From Oxalobacteraceae bacterium (GTDB lineage: Bacteria; Pseudomonadota; Gammaproteobacteria; Burkholderiales; Burkholderiaceae_D): DNA of 64,000 bases. Positions 44,628 through 56,468 of the stretch are shown piece by piece (positions within the stretch are counted from its first letter, which is position 1; every line of letters starts with the position of its first letter). The notes under the pieces were generated by a model. That model saw only the letters and a program-made list of their open reading frames with translations, was not told the DNA's origin and did not search any database. The stretch is taken from NCBI GenBank assembly GCA_021299035.1, contig JAJTGD010000011.1, positions 1 through 64,000 on the forward strand. The letters run 5' to 3'. The translations under genes were made by a program, and so were the position numbers.

Positions 44628-47600
44628 TCACCCCAGCCCGTTTGCCGTCTTGTAAGCCGACGCTGAAATACCTTCCAGCAGAATGATGGCCGAGATGCCC
44701 GTACCGTCATGGTCATAGGCGAGATAGGTGGTGCTGTCGTTGCCTCCGATCAGTACATCAGCGACAGTGTTCAATGAGCTGGTCGTTCCGGTGACTTGCC
44801 CGGTATTGAAATGGTTGATGGCGCTGTTGACAAAGCCATCCAGTGTTCTGGCGGTGGTCGCCACACCAGCAAGGCCATCGAAATGCAGCTCGTCATGACC
44901 AAGCCGAAAACCTTTGATCAATACACGCTGCACAGCTGCATCCGTAAGGCTGTCTTGGTCAGCGCCAAATTCAATGATCGCTTTACCGTTAGCACCGGTA
45001 AAACTGATATCGATATTGTCGAGCAATTGATTAACGGCCGACGCCTTGTCACCGAGGGTCAATGTGGTTGTTCCCGCATGGTCAGTATCGCCTAGCCGCG
45101 CCTTGCCACCGTCTGAAAACAATCTGAGTGACATCGACACTGCGTCATCATGCTGTATCGCGTCCAGAAACACATCGATCGGCGCGCCGCCCAGTTTACC
45201 GACCTGTACATCGGCAGTCGCCTTTGCACCTGCTGCTGAACCGACACTGCTATCTGCACTCATGAAGATCGTGCCGTTGACGCTGACATTACTCCCCGCA
45301 CCCTGACGCAAGACTAAATCAGCATGACTACCCTCACCGAGCGCTCCTATCGAGATACTCTCCATGAGATTGACTGCAGCAGCGCTTGAAACGATATTCG
45401 CCTTGGCCTCACTGCCATTACCGCTAGCGAGAATCGACAAACCGCCCTCAATCGTGATGGGTGACGACGAAGTGCTCAGCGTGAGTGCGCTATGACTGGC
45501 AGTTGCCGTCGCTGATGAGAGCAAGTCACCCGTGATATTGATTTTATCTTGCGCGCTAACGACAGAAACCACTGCCTGCGAATCAACATTCGACGCGATA
45601 GCACTCAAATCACTACCGATACTGACCACACCCCGATCTGCTACGACCGACAGATTTGCCACTGCTGCGACACCACTCGCCTCTACCAAGACTGGACCAG
45701 CGATTGCCACGTTAGCCGACATAGTTGTCGTTGGCGTACGCGCATCGGATCCAGCGTGGCCTGTCAACGTAGCCTGGGCACTGCTGCGGCTTCCACTGGC
45801 GATAACATCGAGTGCACTACCTAGCGTCAAGGCGCTCCCTACAGAAAATACATCGAGTTCGGACGCTGCACCATAGCCCGAACCAATCACCCGCACATTC
45901 CCCGCGATGCTGACCGAACCATAGCCCGTGATAACAGTGTAATCAGTGCTATCGACGCTACTGGCGCTACTCAGAAGACCTGAGCCAGCACCGATACTGA
46001 CCTTGACATCAGGTGTCGTCGTACCAGTATTACCTATCATGGCTAGCGCAGTGAGTTGACCATTGATTATGATATCTCTATTGAAAGTTCTCAAGGCAAT
46101 CGAGGTACTGGTATCAACTGCACCAGACAGCGCCAAGACATCTCCTGATACAGACACAATGCCGCCACCTTCACGATTGGTTTGCGTACTACTTCCAAAA
46201 TTCAGATCCCCAAGCTTTATATTGACTGCGGCATGAGCGTGAGCAGCGCTCGTCGAGGCTTGAATTTGGCCCACACTGAAATCGCCATAGGTATTTTCTG
46301 CACGAAATTCTGATACTGCAGAAGCGCCAGTTGCATGAACCAATAGGCCGCCATCTATTTGTAATGTCGGTGCGGCATTTGATGAGATGCTTGCGTAAGC
46401 TCTCGCAGAGGTGCCGGAGGCTATGATAAGAAGACTGCCAAAAAAACTGATTGTCCGGGACTCCTCTACAGAACGCGACAGAAAATCTTGAGTGATGGCT
46501 AATTCGGCATTTGCTAAAGCACCACTGGCTTGGATGCTGACATCATAAAATTCTAGCTCACCCTTCTTGTAGTTGATTTGCAGACCTGATATAGACTTTG
46601 GCCCAGATGCCACTATCTGTAACGGGCTCTTGAAGAATATTTTGGCCAGAGCACTTTGGGAGAATTTCAAGGTTACTTCGGACTGAAATCCACTAGCCTC
46701 GAGCGTGGCATTACCAAATTGCTGGAACTGCATTTGAGCGCCCATCCTTGCATCGGAAATGCTGAATTCTGACTGAGCATTACTGCCTGTTGCTTGGATA
46801 AGTAAAGGATTATTAATGTTAATTAACTCTGCTTGTAAATTCATACTCACGCGAGACCCATCTCCACTAGCGATGGCTTTAATACCGGCATTAAAAACCG
46901 CTGTACCGACGTCTTGAGTCAAGGTGAACGATACATTACTAAGGAGACCCTCAGCTCTCAGTTCGGTCTGTTGAATGAAAAATCTAGGTTGCCGCATTAG
47001 ATCACTGCCACTAGCAGTCAGATCAATAATAACTTGGCTACGGTAGGCAGATGCGATTGCAGCCAATCCTTTATCCGACACAATCCTTCCATTATTCGTC
47101 TCGAACGTAAGCGTATTTGTTTCAGCAACATCTGCTGTGACGACTAAATCCTCATTTAGGACTATGGGCTCATTGGAGTTGATTAATGATCTAGGATCGA
47201 TATATTCTCGCTGTGCGATGTTGAGAATAGATGAGTTGATCTCTTGCACCGCAGGCACACTTACCTGCCTATCAAAATTGAGATATACCATCTGTACAGG
47301 ATCCATAATACTTATTAAACCTGTCAGCCCGGTACCATCAAGATCATAAGCAATATAAACTGTTTTCTGTGCCACATCGTAAGTCGTTCGAGAACTTGCA
47401 GAATTTGGCGTCGCGGCAAACTGTTGAATAGCGTCATTCAGAAATGCGTCCAGACCAAGAAAATTTGAAAATACAGGATCGTTGAAACCATTACGAGTTA
47501 GTTCTGAAGGAACAATCAACCTATCGAGTCCCTCTCTCCACCCTTCAATTGTCAGCATATTTGCTTTCGCTGATTCGATGCCCATATCTATATCTTTTGA

Positions 47601-50600
47601 TCCTAGAAAAATATTGGCAATTCCATTTCTCCAAAAATTGATTTTTATATTAGCTGCTTGCATATTATCGAGCTGCAAGTAAACCTGACCAGCAGAGGGG
47701 TCAGAACCAAGGTTGAACTGCCCGCCATACGATAGGTTGTTTACCCGCAGGACTGCGATATCAAACCAGTTCACTGCATCTACGTTTGCAATACGAGTGC
47801 TACCACCGTCCATGCTGATAGCTGCGCTCGCAATAGCTCTTGAGATGGGATCTACACTGCTATCCGCCTTAATGCTTATGTTTCCCGTTATTTTTAATGC
47901 GGCGAGGGCATCCAGTGTCGCCGCGGATCCAGCGCCTTGGGCTGAGATTAAGGTATCGCCACCGACGTTCATAGCAGCTGACGATGAACCCACCATGGAA
48001 ACCGTCGATCGACTACCGTAACTCGTAGCCTCCACACTGATGCCGTGGTCGATACTTCCGGTGACAGCAACGCCGGACGACGCATTCGTCACCATAAGAC
48101 TGGTTCGAGCAAAATCACCCGTTGCGTCCAGATGAAGCGCGCCGCCAATATGCAGTGATGGTGCAGCACCACCTAGCGTAATTGCTGCGTGGCTGCCAAA
48201 GTCGAGTGCAACCAAGTTACCACGGGCAGTGGAGTCTATTTTCCAATCGCCGGCGATATCAAGCGCCGAGAGTGTCGCGTTCGTACCGGTATAGAAACGT
48301 GCTCGGCTACCATAACCGATTGAATCCTGTGTCAGATCACCTTCGATCTCCACCCTATAGGGATTAGTTTTTCCAGCTTCCCAAATGGCCGAGGCAATAC
48401 CCCCTGCGGCAGATTGATCCGCCGCGATCTTGAGATCGCCCTGGATATCAACCCGACTACGCACATTCTTGAATGCCAATTGCGTGAGCCTACCCTCTCC
48501 GAGCACTGCCCCATCACGCTCCAAAATTACGTCACCCGCAATCGTGACATCGCCGCTCAGATCAAGTAACGCTGTGCTGCCATGACCCGATGATTGAATC
48601 GCAATGCCTGGATCAGTCGTTGACCCTGAGGTCGTTGCTATCGTGAGTTGTTCGCTCGTCGTAAAACTCAATTTAGCGGAGCTGAGCGTCCCGGTCGATG
48701 CGAGCAATATCTCATTACCTATTGTTATGCTCCCTGGTAAAGAAATTTCACTCTGTGTACTACTCTGTGCCGCAAGACTACTTTGGTTGATTGCTCCTTG
48801 CAGCACCATACCGCCTTGATCTGCCTTGAATGTTATAACTGTTGATGCATCCGTAGCTCCGTGGGCCGTTATCACGTTCAACGATGACGCAAGGGTGAGT
48901 GCGATGCCAGTAGTTGCAGGCGCATAGGCAGACAAGCTTAGTGTTGATACTGTGCCGGCACCCTCAGCCTCTACCGTCACTGGGCCGTTGACACTGATCG
49001 TACCGCGCCCTGTCTCAGCAATTACCGTTGCAACACTGTTCGCACCACTTGCGAGTACATTCACAGACCCCATGCGAATATTGCCTGAAACTGAAGACAA
49101 TTTTACCGTTGCACTGGTACGCAAATCGGTATTCAGCAAGGGTAGCGTGGTCCCAGTAGCGATCGCGCTGACGCCGCCATAGAGCGTGTTGGTACCCGAA
49201 CTTGACTCCAGCAAGATCGCGCCAGTTGTTGAGTTAACCCAGATGGCTGAGGAACTGCCATCACCCGCGGATAGGGCAGATAACTGGCTACCGATCACCA
49301 CATTGCCGCCCGCACTGATCAGGTTTATTTCGGTCGTACTACGCTCAGCATAGCTAGCAGCGGTCAGCAGATTAGTCTTTAGGATGCCGGTGGCACCTGA
49401 CTGTAGCAGTATCCCTGCCTTTGATTGCGTCCCTGTCGCTACCACATAGAGATCCAAAGCCTGCACACTCGTATTGGATATCGCAGTTACATTGGCTATC
49501 GCTTGCTGCCCCGCGGCATGGACCCGAACCGGGCCACTGATATTGCCGCCTAGCGGGGTACCACTAGTGATCGTACCGCCGAGCCCGATCGTCATCTCAG
49601 CTCTACTTAAATTGAAGCCGTTGGCATCCCCTGCTGCGAGTAGCAATAGCGCCCCAAGATTTGCAGTGACACCCTGTGCACTACTGACGGCCGGTAGTTT
49701 TCCTATGTTGAGGGCTGCGCTCGATCCACCACCACGCGCCGTCAAAAGAATATCTTGTTTATTGAGTACCGCGTTGGCCTCCGCTGCGGACCATTTCAAG
49801 TCTAGCCGAGCACTGCTGGTGCCGGTATCAAATACAAATTTGGCTCTATCGTCTGCGCCAAGCGCACCCAATACTTGCGCCTGCGCGCTAGACGGCAACA
49901 CATGCTGGCTGATACTGAGACGGTTTGTCACCGGGTCTGCATTTTTTCCAGCACCAAAATCCGCAGCGATCAATGCGCCATTGACCTTATCCTGAGCATC
50001 GATTCGTCCATCAAGGTTCAGGTCAAACCAGGCGCCGGTCGCGTTGATGACTATGCGCGCACTTGGGCCAGTGAGAGAATCGATTAATGCGCTCCCCAAG
50101 TCTGCAATCAGTCTATCAATACCCGCCTTGATCTCGGACTGGAGTGATGCTTCGCTTAGCTCACCATTGTTTAGCGCGGTATTCAGACCAGCACTTAAAC
50201 GCGACAAGTCTGGTAGTACGGTGTGAACTGCCCTAGCGAGGGTATTTTCACTGTCGAATACTAGGGTATAGGTCGTCATCAAGCGCGCAAGCGTGTTACT
50301 GAGTGCATCATCAACAATAAGTGAGTCTGGCAGCACACTCGCCATTGCGAGCTTCAATTGGGCGACGTCACTAAAATCGAAACTACCGCGACTTGTCATG
50401 AACTGTGCTAACCGCTGAGAAATATCGCTGCTGACAGATGCAGAGAGCTCGAGCGATGCCGCGTCACTTGGGGCATTACTCATACCACTTGCAAGTGAGA
50501 CCAAAACATTCAGTAATACATTAGCCTGCAACTCAGAAACTAATCGTTTATTCGAATCCCGCTCGGGTGCAACCGACATCAGTGTTTCAGCAGATGTGCT

Positions 50601-51893
50601 CAGACCAAGGGTGTTAGCTACAACATTGAGGTGATCCTCGTAGGCCGACGCGATATCGAAACCCTCGGGCGTACCGCGCATGAGCTGGCATTGGAATCGG
50701 TCAGCTGCGAGCGTCGTCAGTGGGCTAAGTACAACCTGAAATAATTTATCGCTCTCAACAACAGCGTTTGTCAAATAGGCGCTGTATTGCAGCGGGCCAG
50801 TGATGGCAAGCTCCCCCCTGATGGTGCTCGCGGTGCCACCGTTCGCCGTGAATTGAAGTATGCCGGTTGTCGGATCGAAGCCCGATAGGGTCTGCGGAAC
50901 TGCAAACTGACCACGTGTGATACTGAATGTACTACCGGTGACGCTAGTACTGAATGCACTAACGGTGACACTATTGACGGTCAATGGCAAAGCCAACTCG
51001 GCGCTATCGATTCGCCCATCAGCGTTCGCGTCATAACGCATCTGTACACTGGCCAGCGCCAAACTTTCCGGTCCTACCATCCCGGCACGATTGGAGATCA
51101 GGGGCAGCGGTGGTGGTTCGGTGCCTGTGTTACCGCCTGTGTTACCGCCGGTATTACCACTGGTATTACCACCCGTATTACCGCCTGTATTGCCACCCGT
51201 ATTACCGCCTGTATTACCGCCTGTATTACCGCCTGTATTGCCACCCGTATTGCCACCGGTATTGCCACCGGTATTGCCCCCGGTATTGCCACCCGTATTA
51301 CCGCCTGTGTTACCGCCTGTGTTACCGCCTGTGTTACCGCCTGTATTGCCACCCGTATTGCCACCCGTATTGCCACCCGTATTACCGCCTGAATTCCCAC
51401 CGGTGTTACCACCTGAACTCAGTGTGCCACTTGACCCACCACCTGACCTCGCGGCCGCCGCCGCTACCGCACCTAGCGCAATCGCCCCACCTAGTAGCCA
51501 ACCCGAACCGCCCTCGCTGTCCTCCCCTGGACCGATGACCACCTTATCGCTGGCACCCACCGGATCACCCGTTAGCAAGGCGTACCCGCTATCGTACTGA
51601 CCGATAGTCGTACTGAATAACTCACCGGAACCATCAAAGGCGGTATTACCATTCGCTGGTAGATAAAAGCCCTCAAGACGAATCAGCGGATCCCCATCGA
51701 TGAATATCTGAAGATCCTGACCGACTCGCTTAGCTTGTAATTTTCCCGGTAGTTTGCCTGTAGTCGCATCAACGACGGTATACGCCGATCCAATTTCAAC
51801 TTGAACGAAGTCCCCAGTAATTTCTTTGGTGGAAATCTTCCCGGCAGGGCTGCGCTTTAGCAGCTTGAATTGTCTCGGGTCGGGTTTAGGCAT
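44628..51893 (-). CDS. Giant BapA-type adhesin, type I secreted, with duplicated C-terminal module
   Basis: 2421 residues, ATG at 51893 with GGAGATC upstream. Order of parts: a BapA/LapF-type prefix of about 115 residues (YTVVDATTGKLPGKLQAKR), a hydrophobic segment (GWLLGGAIALGAVAAAAARSGGG), a tract of about two dozen GGNT repeats (about 158-260), an EF-hand-like loop (DANADGRIDSAE) near 290, a helical region, and a second loop (DLNLDGRIDAQD) near 630. Long beta-rich repeats follow, of the form I-x-G-x-L-x-I-x-A-x-G-x-x-S-x-A. A module with YIAYDLDGTGL lies at about 1340-1537 and a related C-terminal module with YLAYDHDGTGI at about 2209-2421. The last is the expected secretion signal region. 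The transporter genes are divergent next door. Attachment and biofilm formation is the inferred role. Confidence 0.88.
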   Translation of the reverse strand: MPKPDPRQFKLLKRSPAGKISTKEITGDFVQVEIGSAYTVVDATTGKLPGKLQAKRVGQDLQIFIDGDPLIRLEGFYLPANGNTAFDGSGELFSTTIGQYDSGYALLTGDPVGASDKVVIGPGEDSEGGSGWLLGGAIALGAVAAAAARSGGGSSGTLSSGGNTGGNSGGNTGGNTGGNTGGNTGGNTGGNTGGNTGGNTGGNTGGNTGGNTGGNTGGNTGGNTGGNTGGNTGGNTGGNTGGNTSGNTGGNTGGNTGTEPPPLPLISNRAGMVGPESLALASVQMRYDANADGRIDSAELALPLTVNSVTVSAFSTSVTGSTFSITRGQFAVPQTLSGFDPTTGILQFTANGGTASTIRGELAITGPLQYSAYLTNAVVESDKLFQVVLSPLTTLAADRFQCQLMRGTPEGFDIASAYEDHLNVVANTLGLSTSAETLMSVAPERDSNKRLVSELQANVLLNVLVSLASGMSNAPSDAASLELSASVSSDISQRLAQFMTSRGSFDFSDVAQLKLAMASVLPDSLIVDDALSNTLARLMTTYTLVFDSENTLARAVHTVLPDLSRLSAGLNTALNNGELSEASLQSEIKAGIDRLIADLGSALIDSLTGPSARIVINATGAWFDLNLDGRIDAQDKVNGALIAADFGAGKNADPVTNRLSISQHVLPSSAQAQVLGALGADDRAKFVFDTGTSSARLDLKWSAAEANAVLNKQDILLTARGGGSSAALNIGKLPAVSSAQGVTANLGALLLLAAGDANGFNLSRAEMTIGLGGTITSGTPLGGNISGPVRVHAAGQQAIANVTAISNTSVQALDLYVVATGTQSKAGILLQSGATGILKTNLLTAASYAERSTTEINLISAGGNVVIGSQLSALSAGDGSSSAIWVNSTTGAILLESSSGTNTLYGGVSAIATGTTLPLLNTDLRTSATVKLSSVSGNIRMGSVNVLASGANSVATVIAETGRGTISVNGPVTVEAEGAGTVSTLSLSAYAPATTGIALTLASSLNVITAHGATDASTVITFKADQGGMVLQGAINQSSLAAQSSTQSEISLPGSITIGNEILLASTGTLSSAKLSFTTSEQLTIATTSGSTTDPGIAIQSSGHGSTALLDLSGDVTIAGDVILERDGAVLGEGRLTQLAFKNVRSRVDIQGDLKIAADQSAAGGIASAIWEAGKTNPYRVEIEGDLTQDSIGYGSRARFYTGTNATLSALDIAGDWKIDSTARGNLVALDFGSHAAITLGGAAPSLHIGGALHLDATGDFARTSLMVTNASSGVAVTGSIDHGISVEATSYGSRSTVSMVGSSSAAMNVGGDTLISAQGAGSAATLDALAALKITGNISIKADSSVDPISRAIASAAISMDGGSTRIANVDAVNWFDIAVLRVNNLSYGGQFNLGSDPSAGQVYLQLDNMQAANIKINFWRNGIANIFLGSKDIDMGIESAKANMLTIEGWREGLDRLIVPSELTRNGFNDPVFSNFLGLDAFLNDAIQQFAATPNSASSRTTYDVAQKTVYIAYDLDGTGLTGLISIMDPVQMVYLNFDRQVSVPAVQEINSSILNIAQREYIDPRSLINSNEPIVLNEDLVVTADVAETNTLTFETNNGRIVSDKGLAAIASAYRSQVIIDLTASGSDLMRQPRFFIQQTELRAEGLLSNVSFTLTQDVGTAVFNAGIKAIASGDGSRVSMNLQAELININNPLLIQATGSNAQSEFSISDARMGAQMQFQQFGNATLEASGFQSEVTLKFSQSALAKIFFKSPLQIVASGPKSISGLQINYKKGELEFYDVSIQASGALANAELAITQDFLSRSVEESRTISFFGSLLIIASGTSARAYASISSNAAPTLQIDGGLLVHATGASAVSEFRAENTYGDFSVGQIQASTSAAHAHAAVNIKLGDLNFGSSTQTNREGGGIVSVSGDVLALSGAVDTSTSIALRTFNRDIIINGQLTALAMIGNTGTTTPDVKVSIGAGSGLLSSASSVDSTDYTVITGYGSVSIAGNVRVIGSGYGAASELDVFSVGSALTLGSALDVIASGSRSSAQATLTGHAGSDARTPTTTMSANVAIAGPVLVEASGVAAVANLSVVADRGVVSIGSDLSAIASNVDSQAVVSVVSAQDKINITGDLLSSATATASHSALTLSTSSSPITIEGGLSILASGNGSEAKANIVSSAAAVNLMESISIGALGEGSHADLVLRQGAGSNVSVNGTIFMSADSSVGSAAGAKATADVQVGKLGGAPIDVFLDAIQHDDAVSMSLRLFSDGGKARLGDTDHAGTTTLTLGDKASAVNQLLDNIDISFTGANGKAIIEFGADQDSLTDAAVQRVLIKGFRLGHDELHFDGLAGVATTARTLDGFVNSAINHFNTGQVTGTTSSLNTVADVLIGGNDSTTYLAYDHDGTGISAIILLEGISASAYKTANGLG
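51118..51416 (-). repeat. Tandem 12-base repeat coding for GGNT units
   Basis: About 300 bases made of imperfect 12-base units (on the plus strand variants of CCACCCGTATTA, CCGCCTGTATTG) that encode Gly-Gly-Asn-Thr about two dozen times in the adhesin. Unit variants are clustered in blocks, which suggests recent copy-number change. It encodes a flexible linker between the N-terminal prefix and the passenger. A single serine variant interrupts each end. Confidence 0.93.
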
Positions 51894-52210
51894 TCGGGAT
51901 CTCCATCGTTAGTTGAAACACGCAGATACTCACTACTTCGTAGCGTATTTACCGCCAAGGTGCGTCGGAATGATGCACCACGCTGTCCCAATTCTTGTTG
52001 CACTGATCAGACGATTCCCTCGCTTATTTTCATCGTAATGACGGTGCTGTCGTACATTTGCACGCGCCACTCGCTCTTCATCACTGCATTTTTTGGTATC
52101 GCGCATAGGCAAATCACACGTGCAACCAAGCCGTTAGTGACCCCAGAATCCAAGGTGTGCGTTTTACACCACGGGTAGGTGCTCATTCCCTGTTCAAGTC
52201 GAGGTCATGT
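51894..52210. promoter_or_regulatory. Divergent regulatory region between the adhesin and its exporter operon
   Basis: 317 bases with no supported gene. It should hold the promoters for the leftward adhesin and the rightward tolC-ABC-hlyD operon. An inverted repeat GGTGT-GCGTTTT-ACACC lies at about 52155-52171, close to the tolC start, and could be an operator or leader hairpin. I could not identify sigma-factor boxes or a regulator site with confidence. Confidence 0.45.
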
Positions 52211-53506
52211 ATGAGGTTTTGCGCGTTCATTCGAAGGCTGTCGATTTTTCTTGGTGTTCTTTCTTGCATTGCTCACGCGCAAGATTTTTCCGTGATGCAA
52301 GCAGATAAACGAATCGGTGAATCCAATACAGCACTCAGCTTTGAACAGGCACTACGGATTGCCGCTGATACTCATCCCAGTATTGCTCAGCGACTTAGCG
52401 AGCAAGGTGCCAGCGAATACGGTGCAACCGGAGCACGCTGGCAACGCTGGCCGGGTTTGAGTGTGTCTTCTTCGCGTGGCCCACTGGGAAGCACGCTGAC
52501 TGAGCTGCAGCTTGAACAACCGCTGTGGTCGGGGGGGCGTATCACCGCCAACATTAATGCGGCCGAAGCGCGTGCCGAAGCCGCCCGGAACAGTGTCGCC
52601 GAAGCCCGTAAAGTAATTCTCGAACGTGCGATCAATGCCTATGCCGAAGCGATGCGGCTGCAATCACGCCTATTGATTGCGGATACAGCGATTGCTGACT
52701 TTGAGCAGCTGCGCGACATGATTGACCGACGTGTCGAAAGTGGTATCAGCCCAAAAGCCGACGCGATCAATGTACGCGCCCGTTTGCAACAGTCACAAAG
52801 TGAGCGTATGCAAATGAGTCTGCAACTACAAAACACGCGTACCGAGCTGGAGTTACTTCTCGGAAGACGATTCACAGCATTAGTCGTACCGCCACCCCTC
52901 GCGAAACTTTCCCTGAACATGGATGAAGCACTCGATATCGTATTAGACACTGCCCCCGAGCTTGCACGTCTGAATGCAGAAGAGCGCGTTGCCGAGGAGG
53001 CGATAGCCGCGACACGCAGCAGTCTGTCACCCTCACTCGCCTTGCGCTATCAGCGCGTGTTTGGTGGAGGCACATTCTATGCAACTGATCAGGTATTCGT
53101 TGGCGTCACCTACCAACCAGGTAATGGACTGTCATCATTCTCAGCCATCAGCGAGGCTGAGTCACGCCGCACCGGCGCTGTGTATGCGCGCGAGGCAGCA
53201 CGTCTTGATCTCATCAATCGCGTACGAAGTTTATGGCAGCAAGCGGATTCGTCACGCCGTGAGTTGAGTATTCTGAACGAACTCGTTTCTTCTACTCAGC
53301 AGGTCTATGAATCCTGCTTGCGGCAATTTCCGGTTGGACGTCGTACTTGGCTAGAGCTGCTGTTGGCGAGGCGTGATGCCACACAAGCACAGTATGCACT
53401 GGCCGATATCCGCTGGAGTGGTTTTGCATCGCAGCTGAAGCTTGAACTGGTGACCGGCCAGCTTGCTGCGCGTGATTACCGCGTAATTGAGGAGCCATCG
53501 CCATGA
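52211..53506 (+). CDS. TolC-family outer-membrane channel of a type I secretion system
   Basis: 431 residues from the ATG at 52211 (GAGGTC upstream). A signal peptide ending in IAHAQ is followed by two TolC-type repeats: SFEQALRIAADTHPSIAQRLSEQGASEY (by ALRIAADTHPSIAQRL) with LEQPLWSGGRITANINAAEAR (by LEQPLWSGGRI), then LDIVLDTAPELARLNAEERVAEE (by DTAPELARLNAEE) and the C-terminal helices with LNELVSSTQQVYE. It forms the trimeric channel through which the adhesin should leave the cell. The stop overlaps the ABC gene start (ATGA). Confidence 0.92.
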   Translation: MRFCAFIRRLSIFLGVLSCIAHAQDFSVMQADKRIGESNTALSFEQALRIAADTHPSIAQRLSEQGASEYGATGARWQRWPGLSVSSSRGPLGSTLTELQLEQPLWSGGRITANINAAEARAEAARNSVAEARKVILERAINAYAEAMRLQSRLLIADTAIADFEQLRDMIDRRVESGISPKADAINVRARLQQSQSERMQMSLQLQNTRTELELLLGRRFTALVVPPPLAKLSLNMDEALDIVLDTAPELARLNAEERVAEEAIAATRSSLSPSLALRYQRVFGGGTFYATDQVFVGVTYQPGNGLSSFSAISEAESRRTGAVYAREAARLDLINRVRSLWQQADSSRRELSILNELVSSTQQVYESCLRQFPVGRRTWLELLLARRDATQAQYALADIRWSGFASQLKLELVTGQLAARDYRVIEEPSP

Positions 53507-55323
53507 GTCACGCTGAAGATATATCTGCCGTATCGGGTAGAGATCGTATTACTAATCGTAGTGCTCGGCAGTGGTTCATTCATGCAATCGTGGCGCGACA
53601 CTGGGTATTCATGGAGGCAGTCGTCGCTACCTTTGTCATCAGTATGCTGGGGCTGGGTGCATCGTTTTACAGCTTGCAGGTCTATGACCGCGTTATTCCC
53701 ACGCAAGCGCATGCAACATTAGTCGCACTGACTATTGGCGTTGGTATCGCTGTAGTGTTCGAGTTCATCTTGAAGCAAGTGCGATCGCTGATGGTTGATC
53801 GCGGCTGTAAAGCGATCGAAGAAGAGCTATCCGAAGTTTTCTTTAGTCGTATGTTGGCTATACGAATGGAGGCTCGTCCACGCGCAGTCGGCAGCTTTGC
53901 CGCGCAGGTTCGTCAGTTCGAACTGGTGCGTAACTTCATGAGCTCGTCGACAGTTTTCCTGCTCGCTGATCTACCGTTCTGTTTTTTATTCATTATGGTG
54001 ATTGGTGTCATCGGTGGCTGGCTTGCTGTAATTCCCTTACTGCTGCTACCGATCGTGCTGCTCAGCTCGGCCTGGCTAAACTGGCGTATCGGGCGGCTGA
54101 CCACACGTCAGTTGCGCGATACCCGCCATAAGAATGGTTTGCTGGTCGATGTCATCGACGGTATAGAAAGCATCAAGGCTGCGGGTGCCGAAAGCGAGAT
54201 GCTGGAACGCTGGCGCCGGCTGGTAGCGTCGAGCTCGATGCTCGAGCTGGATACCCGCTACCTCTCCACTATGGCATCGAACATTGCGCAATTACTACAA
54301 CAGCTGAGTTATGTTGCCATCATCGGGCTGGGTGCCTGGATGGTCGGCGCTGGTCAGATCACCATGGGTGCACTCATCGCTTGCTCTATTCTCAGCAATC
54401 GCACGCTGTCGCCGATTACCCAGATTGCGACTTGGGTCACGCAGTGGCAACACGCTAAAGAAGCCCTGCGCGGATTGGACGAGATGATGCGACTGCCAAC
54501 CGATCGCCTTGATATCGGGACTGCGATCATGCCGTCATCTTGTAGCGGCGAATTGCGGGTTGAGCAGGCAGCCTTTGCTTTCAATGACAAACTCGCAGCG
54601 TTGCAGCCCCTGACGCTAACGATCAATGCGGGTGAACGGATCGCAATTGTGGGGCCGATCGGCTCTGGCAAGTCAACACTGATTCGACTGCTGTCCGGCC
54701 TTTACCGTCCGATGGCAGGAAAGTTGCTGCTCGATGGTGTTGATATGGCTTTGCTGGCACCATCCTATTTACGTACCCACATTGGCTATCTACCTCAAGA
54801 TGTCCGGCTGCTACATGGCACGCTGCGCGATAACCTCACGCTCGGTATTGCCCCGCCCAATGACAGTACCTTGATCCATGCCGCGAGATTGACCGGGCTC
54901 GATCGGGTCATCAGCGCACACCCGCAGGGTATGGATTTGCCTATTCAGGAAGGCGGGCGCGGTCTGTCGGGCGGACAACGGCAACTCGTCGGCCTGACCC
55001 GTCTGCTTCTTAGTCAGCCGACAGTGTTACTACTGGATGAACCAACGGCGGCTATGGATGCCGAGTTAGAAGCAAACGTGATGCAGCGCATGCTGTCATC
55101 ACTAACGCCTTCGGCGACTGTCGTGTTCGTAACGCACAAGGCCAGCTTGCTGCGGCTAGTTGACCGCGTCATCGTGATGGATCAGGGGCGCGTTTTGATT
55201 GATGGCCCACGTAACGAAGTACTGGCAAAGCTGACTTCGACCGCACCCATCGGGGCGGGAACTAACCCAGCAAGAAATAGCACACCCGACCACCGGCAGG
55301 GCTTAGTGGGAGAGACACTGTGA
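53503..55323 (+). CDS. Type I secretion ABC transporter (permease fused to ATPase)
   Basis: 606 residues. Membrane domain with about six segments from residue 35 to 330 (FMEAVVATFVISMLGLGASF, GSFAAQVRQFELVRNFMSS). The ATPase domain has Walker A GPIGSGKST near residue 384, the Q-loop GYLPQDVRLLHGT, signature LSGGQRQ near 488, Walker B VLLLDEPTAAMD near 508 and the H-loop THK near 543. LapB and HlyB relatives carry an N-terminal C39-like domain of about 130 residues. Here it is missing or reduced to 35 residues. This is the energy-using inner-membrane part of the exporter. Its start overlaps tolC and its stop overlaps hlyD. Confidence 0.94.
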   Translation: MSHAEDISAVSGRDRITNRSARQWFIHAIVARHWVFMEAVVATFVISMLGLGASFYSLQVYDRVIPTQAHATLVALTIGVGIAVVFEFILKQVRSLMVDRGCKAIEEELSEVFFSRMLAIRMEARPRAVGSFAAQVRQFELVRNFMSSSTVFLLADLPFCFLFIMVIGVIGGWLAVIPLLLLPIVLLSSAWLNWRIGRLTTRQLRDTRHKNGLLVDVIDGIESIKAAGAESEMLERWRRLVASSSMLELDTRYLSTMASNIAQLLQQLSYVAIIGLGAWMVGAGQITMGALIACSILSNRTLSPITQIATWVTQWQHAKEALRGLDEMMRLPTDRLDIGTAIMPSSCSGELRVEQAAFAFNDKLAALQPLTLTINAGERIAIVGPIGSGKSTLIRLLSGLYRPMAGKLLLDGVDMALLAPSYLRTHIGYLPQDVRLLHGTLRDNLTLGIAPPNDSTLIHAARLTGLDRVISAHPQGMDLPIQEGGRGLSGGQRQLVGLTRLLLSQPTVLLLDEPTAAMDAELEANVMQRMLSSLTPSATVVFVTHKASLLRLVDRVIVMDQGRVLIDGPRNEVLAKLTSTAPIGAGTNPARNSTPDHRQGLVGETL

Positions 55324-56468
55324 ATCCTATAGAGAGTCGCCCATCGCCCACCATCTGGATCAGTCTATTAGCACTGGTATGTTTTTTCGTATGGGCATCA
55401 CAAGCGGAGCTGGAGCAGCTAACCCGAGCACCAGGACAAATTATTGCCAGTGGGCGCACACAAATCATCCAGGCAAGTGATGGCGGCGTATTGCAGGCAT
55501 TGCGTGTCAAAGAGGGCGACACCGTAGAACGTGGCCAGTTACTGGCACTGCTTGATAGTCAGAAGCTTCGCGCTGCCTATCAGGAAACTCGGTCGCGCGA
55601 GCTTGCGCTGCGTGCTACGGTGGCCCGATTACAAGCAGAATTAGTGGGCGGAGAGCCCGTGTTTTCTTCAGAGATCGCGGGCTATCCGCAATTTCGTACG
55701 AATCAGCTGGCACTGCTACAGAAACGTCGCGCTTCGATCAACGAAGAAACTGCTGCGCTGCGCAAGCTGCTCGAGCTAGCGCAGCGCGAACTTGCGATGA
55801 CATCGCCGCTAGTAAATACTGGCGATGTATCGCAAGCAGATGTATTGAAGCTGGAGCGGCAGGTCGCCGATCTGCAGGCGCAGATCACGAATCGTCAGAA
55901 TAAATATTTTCAGGATGCACAGGCCGACTTGTCGCGCGCTGAAGAAGAGTTAGCGGGCGTGCAGCAGATGCTGGCACAACGCGCTGACCTGCTGGCACGT
56001 ACCGAGCTGCGCGCACCGATGCGAGGTGTCGTAAAAAATATTCGTATGACCACGCTAGGCGGTACCTTAAAGCCCACCGAGGAGCTGATGCAGATCGTGC
56101 CGATCGAAAAGGAGTTATTGGTCGAGGCGCGTATACGACCCGCTGATATCGCCTTCATACACACCGGACAAGCGGCCAGCGTCAAGGTTGATGCTTACGA
56201 CTACACCTTGTATGGCTGGCTGGATGGGAAGGTCAGCTATCTAAGCCCGGATACACTCACCGATGATCTGAAACAAGGTGAGCAAGCCTACTATCGTATG
56301 CAAGTGCGCGCTGAGGGCAAGTCATTCGGTGGCCACGCGGATCAGAGCATACAGCTACAACCTGGCATGACGGTAAGCGTTGAAGTCAAGACGGGCAAGA
56401 ATACGGTGCTGCGCTACCTCGCCAAACCGATCGTCAGAACGCTACGAGAAGCAATGGTCGAGAAATAA
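55320..56468 (+). CDS. HlyD-family membrane fusion protein of the type I exporter
   Basis: 382 residues from a GTG at 55320 that overlaps the ABC stop (GTGA). One membrane segment lies near residues 10-28. A lipoyl-like half follows (GQIIASGRTQIIQASDGGVLQALRVKEGDTVERGQLLALLD by ASDGGVLQALRVKEGD), then a long coiled coil (about 85-225), the second lipoyl half (LRAPMRGVVKNIRMTTLGGTL by APMRGVVKNIRMTT) and the C-terminal beta domain ending in LQPGMTVSVEVKTGKNTVLRYL. It bridges the ABC transporter and the TolC channel. Confidence 0.94.
   Translation: MNPIESRPSPTIWISLLALVCFFVWASQAELEQLTRAPGQIIASGRTQIIQASDGGVLQALRVKEGDTVERGQLLALLDSQKLRAAYQETRSRELALRATVARLQAELVGGEPVFSSEIAGYPQFRTNQLALLQKRRASINEETAALRKLLELAQRELAMTSPLVNTGDVSQADVLKLERQVADLQAQITNRQNKYFQDAQADLSRAEEELAGVQQMLAQRADLLARTELRAPMRGVVKNIRMTTLGGTLKPTEELMQIVPIEKELLVEARIRPADIAFIHTGQAASVKVDAYDYTLYGWLDGKVSYLSPDTLTDDLKQGEQAYYRMQVRAEGKSFGGHADQSIQLQPGMTVSVEVKTGKNTVLRYLAKPIVRTLREAMVEK

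Follow-up and report, generated by a model that had tools for sequence, protein, structure and literature searches.

An internal homologue of the C-terminal module in a giant, putatively type I-exported adhesin of an Oxalobacteraceae bacterium: a possible folding cap between two solenoid rods

The window analysed here, a stretch of 64,000 nucleotides from an Oxalobacteraceae bacterium (contig JAJTGD010000011.1), carries a giant adhesin gene that adjoins a divergent operon (52157-56468) for a TolC-family protein, an ABC transporter and an HlyD-family adaptor. This is the neighbourhood of a type I secretion substrate, and from it we infer that the adhesin is a surface protein exported by the adjoining system. 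The features of the locus are as follows (residue numbers are those of the adhesin).

44628..51893, minus strand: giant adhesin gene, 2421 aa, one uninterrupted open reading frame
51108..51446, minus strand: Gly/Asn/Thr-rich linker (GGNT repeats), residues ~150-262, preceded by a hydrophobic Ala/Gly stretch
47901..49796, minus strand: solenoid block A, residues ~700-1331, upstream of the internal module (local alignment to block B)
47307..47900, minus strand: internal module, residues 1332-1529, predicted as a beta-solenoid end, a helix (~1481-1494) and three cap strands (1500-1506, 1511-1517 and 1525-1530)
47073..47306, minus strand: linker between the internal module and block B, residues 1530-1607, outside the match to the terminal module
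45306..47072, minus strand: solenoid block B, residues ~1608-2196, upstream of the terminal module (local alignment; modelled as solenoid from residue 2100)
44631..45305, minus strand: terminal module, residues 2197-2421
44631..44654, minus strand: conserved extreme C-terminal tail YKTANGLG, residues 2414-2421, a candidate part of the type I export signal
45594..48146, minus strand: segment in which silent sites differ very strongly between G000 and G167, residues ~1250-2100; it takes in the internal module and the greater part of block B (four-fold sites; compared with L016)
52157..53506, plus strand: TolC-family outer membrane protein, divergent beside the adhesin (Pfam OEP, 2.8e-46; TIGR01844, 1.4e-44, under the curated cut-off)
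53503..55323, plus strand: type I secretion ABC transporter of the LssB subfamily, 606 aa (TIGR03375, 697.3 bits; cut-off 693.1)
55320..56468, plus strand: HlyD-family type I secretion adaptor (TIGR01843, 311.9 bits; cut-off 208.65)

The ABC transporter aligns to TIGR03375 from profile position 129 onwards, the N-terminal part of the LssB profile being absent. The N-terminus of the adhesin lies beside a TolC-like ORF in five of six genomes, the window included (those of the relatives were named by eye and position). A close HlyD relative (at least 71% identity) is encoded by 7 of the 21 genomes of the genus, own genome included, namely the six that carry the modules and G178, whose contig ends less than 100 bases from the 5' end of the HlyD match, with the adhesin region beyond the contig. 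The whole adhesin has no NCBIfam match, and neither module has a Pfam match above the cut-off. Residues 1-150, examined as a LapA-type N-terminal retention module, match no Pfam family and are 64-100% conserved in four relatives. Residues 262-700 (window positions 49794-51110) form a domain that was found within the genus only (4 of 245 family genomes and 4 of 21 genus genomes, counts that miss G145 and G211 because their contigs are cut), with EF-hand/dockerin-like loops that score below the Pfam cut-offs. In G145 (L055, 12300-14948), the adhesin frame ends behind the Gly-rich linker; two ORFs come next that, by eye, resemble an IS21-type transposase pair. No further copy of the adhesin body (residues 262-2421) was found in the own genome.

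The earlier note on this DNA had pointed to a second copy of the C-terminal module at 47275..47880, in the middle of the adhesin. The motifs it quoted are found at the residues given, and the homologous core lies at 47307-47900, close to the reported span. Local alignment of residues 1315-1527 with residues 2193-2404 yields a score of 176, which was reached by none of 1000 shuffles (mean 38.8, maximum 79). The solenoid repeats are also mutually similar (best of 39 pairs 127, median 70). When 61 windows outside both modules were scored, the best reached 70 against the terminal and 50 against the internal module, compared to 167 for the module pair. Chance and plain repeat similarity are thus ruled out by the shuffles and the window control, and the likeness described in the earlier note stands as homology. 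A tblastn search of the own genome with the terminal module (E up to 10) returned, apart from the query, the internal copy alone (E 5.5e-11, 36% identity), while a profile of six terminal modules, including that of the window, found the internal copy at E 7.9e-18. Comparison of the terminal with the internal profile (hhalign) gave a probability of 99.3% (E 1.7e-20, 195 columns), and 11 columns are invariant across all 12 internal and terminal modules in the alignment.

Different folds are not predicted either: both modules are modelled as the end of a solenoid closed by a helix and three strands, in two predictions that are not independent, as they used the same eight sequences with internal and terminal rows mixed. 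Homologous by sequence, the two modules are also alike in the predicted order of their elements. The model covers only the last ~50 residues of block A. The linker at residues 1530-1607 is mostly of low confidence (model residues 256-258, 260-265 and 274-294 have a pLDDT below 50). The best structural match of the internal model is the C-terminal part of RsaA, the S-layer protein of Caulobacter. RsaA is also among the best of the 50 matches listed for the terminal model, where Awp3b (14.3), Awp1 (14.0) and a chain of SufB-SufC-SufD (13.8) score equally high; no AlgE R-module is among these 50. RsaA is 1026 residues long, and the matches reach its residue 1019-1022, near its end. It is type I exported and has five RTX repeats according to PMC3034196, whereas the adhesin lacks the GGxGxD nonapeptide, carries the module twice and shares only 10-11% and 18% identity with RsaA. 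A sequence search of PDB chains returned nothing below E 0.033, with two entries of one unrelated-looking protease.

The two modules differ at their ends. Y218, T220 and G223 of the terminal tail are invariant in all six terminal modules, and the profile matches of the internal copies end at positions 209-213 of 224 in five of six, so that in most copies the last ~12 residues lie beyond the similarity. As far as the alignments tell, the internal copy is an incomplete copy of the C-terminus in which the conserved tail has no counterpart; the idea of a full second secretion module was not borne out. The match in G145, which extends to position 222 of 224, counts against a loss of the tail. PMC6891781 places the export signal of serralysins in the last ~20 residues, and PMC3034196 gives about 60 residues for RTX proteins in general; the terminal tail is only a candidate part of such a signal. 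Because the internal copies lack the conserved tail, they are more likely to serve as folding caps within the chain than to provide a second export signal. An active second station, at which the transporter would re-engage the chain or the distal half would be released by cleavage, is hence very improbable. The internal module is predicted to fold like the export end of a type I substrate and is followed by a low-confidence linker, but besides the missing tail, type I signals are described as C-terminal in PMC3034196 and PMC6891781, and the LapG-type protease family PF06035, the one protease type covered, has no match at E 0.01 in the own genome (94.91% complete), while the same search detected it in Caulobacter among 14 control genomes.

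A DxDGxG pattern occurs in 10 of the 12 aligned modules, and the label of a calcium-type loop relies on this pattern, as the GGxGxD nonapeptide of RTX repeats is found nowhere in the 2421 residues. Calcium-driven folding may apply as a candidate property, in an adhesin that has no such nonapeptide.

The terminal module was found in 7 of 245 family genomes, of which six belong to the genus (own genome included) and the seventh, G219, gave the sole match outside it, a weak one (E 9.5e-4, 31% identity over 111 residues of a 241-residue frame). The genus count is 6 of 21 genomes, and among 399 genomes of the order the module occurs in two, both of this genus. A scan of contigs returned three loci, on the contigs of G167, G145 and G211 with the same modules and thus no extra species, and plasmid records gave no match. 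Four members with other type I operons (G047, G247, G200 and G220) have no module in the genus search; the 3115-residue frame of G047, the one frame of these members of sufficient length for the profile, has no credible module (best E 1). In G047 (L057, 1-9348) and G247 (L058, 2-1123), a different type I operon is preceded by a repetitive ORF with an unlike C-terminus, open at the start of the analysed stretch in G047 and at the contig start in G247.

Both modules lie within one open frame in all six genus proteins that carry the terminal module, four of these frames running off the contig end upstream. The module tree separates the internal from the terminal modules (support 99/99), and it shows no sign of exchange between the two positions. 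Pairwise identities amount to 36-91% among terminal modules, 25-64% among internal modules and 25-30% between an internal module and its own terminal one. Since the two positions group separately, the event predates the six species: by sequence, the modules stem from one event older than these species, either a duplication or the fusion of two homologous genes, and have been distinct since. The common descent implied by the proposed fusion or duplication was thus supported, whereas the two routes are indistinguishable because the 245 family, 21 genus and 399 order genomes yielded no shorter adhesin that ends at the internal module, in a search that short or divergent ones could escape. Block A (residues 700-1327) and block B (residues 1608-2193) align locally with a score of 225. 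A duplicated unit of rod and cap together, upstream repeats included, would be expected to make the stretches just upstream of the modules each other's best match, and this is so in only two of the five proteins tested (G000 and G167), while in G145, G135 and G004 other windows score equal to or above this pair (G211 was left out as its contig is cut).

Between the close relatives G000 and G167, 45-71% of four-fold sites differ in every 75-residue step over residues 1276-2100 (15-24 sites compared per step in the internal module), compared to 2-12% over residues 301-675 and 901-1200, 8% at residues 2101-2175 and 10% at residues 2326-2400. Residues 1201-1275 are intermediate (26%), and residues 151-300, 676-900 and 2176-2325 form smaller patches of divergence. 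In ten neighbouring genes, identity is 91.7-97.0% and 5.8-18.2% of the four-fold sites differ. In the GGNT-repeat linker (51108-51446), 68% of 25 four-fold sites differ at residues 151-225 while the protein is identical; the repeats may be out of register in this alignment.

The internal modules of G000 and G167 retain 64% protein identity while most of the compared four-fold sites differ, and the module is therefore probably under selection. This bears on the idea that the internal module is a relic of the fusion or of a tandem duplication, devoid of a role and kept only since its removal would break the frame or the solenoid. Its missing tail and its faster divergence relative to the terminal copy would agree with a relic, but its presence in six of six proteins, the invariant columns and the amino-acid identity retained although most silent sites differ make this improbable.

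The divergence pattern suggests that the segment of residues ~1250-2100 has been exchanged between lineages, and fits either replacement by a diverged allele or long-kept allelic diversity. The comparison involves two assemblies, one a MAG and the other in 80 contigs, and a chimeric assembly of this repetitive gene is not excluded as its source. Tentatively, the adhesin could be a rod of two parts, the outer one interchangeable: the inner rod would stay with the species, the internal cap and outer rod (~1250-2100) would be swapped by recombination in the flanking conserved sequence, the terminal export module would be retained, and the internal module would be the joint at which a new outer rod is attached and folded.

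A rather unlikely alternative, drawn by analogy, is that the internal module would be a ligand-binding beta-roll on the outer half, fast-changing and exchanged because it is exposed. It does lie inside the divergent segment, and internal copies diverge faster than terminal ones. This faster evolution, which would also fit relaxed constraint, weighs against a folding cap. Other long type I-exported adhesins are known to carry an RTX beta-roll ahead of the one at the C-terminus: AhLap of Aeromonas hydrophila has, apart from its C-terminal RTX domain, another that putatively binds ligand (PMC12077191), and region IV of MpIBP is an ice-binding beta-roll just upstream of the C-terminal region V (PMC6891781). 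However, block B and the upstream repeats in the divergent segment are equally or more divergent, so the module is not singled out, and the two modelled stretches show no domain that buds out of a split one.

We hold with moderate confidence that the internal copy is a structural folding cap between two solenoid rods that has lost the export tail, the terminal cap alone being read by the transporter. In this reading, two beta-solenoid rods would make up the adhesin, and each would be closed by the same type of cap domain, which resembles the solenoid terminator in the C-terminal part of RsaA and of serralysins. The ABC transporter would read only the terminal cap with its tail. As the chain would leave the cell C-terminus first, the terminal cap would fold first outside, followed by rod B; halfway through export, the internal cap would fold and close the exposed edge of rod A. 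It may thereby act as a second folding anchor that hinders back-sliding, would leave a joint between the rods and would persist as a structural cap devoid of the export tail. In RTX beta-rolls, the C-terminal edge is described as requiring protection for proper folding (PMC6891781), and it is because of this need, together with the retained cap and the absent tail, that we propose a structural cap for the inner rod. That unrelated solenoids fit the terminal model no worse than RsaA lowers our confidence.

There are precedents for such internal domains, and the statement that such a module is normally found once, at the very C-terminus, proved too strong as a rule. By analogy, the AlgE epimerases are the nearest precedent: one to four R-modules follow each A-module, two of the enzymes have two A-modules, and R-modules group by position (PMC4444821). 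Each R-module has four to seven nonapeptides and follows an enzyme module, whereas in the adhesin each cap comes after a long solenoid rod. In serralysins, which have five nonapeptides, the cap is the end of a protease (PMC6891781). AhLap differs by its Ig-like extenders, and the internal beta-rolls of AhLap and MpIBP are presented as ligand- or ice-binding domains, a second copy of the C-terminal cap not being described in the parts of PMC12077191 and PMC6891781 drawn on here. A literature search gave no match for an internal secretion signal combined with type I secretion; we do not claim that internal caps in adhesins are unpublished. Mosaic repeat regions have already been described for RTX proteins of Legionella (PMC7730722). 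New here is the segment of silent divergence between two close relatives.

Type I substrates are usually described with one folding-and-export domain, at their end. A conserved internal copy with the fold but without the tail would part two roles that usually go together, solenoid capping and export signalling, and would let each be tested within a single natural protein. Should exchange of the outer half prove real, this would be a natural example of a surface adhesin being renewed in modules among environmental bacteria.
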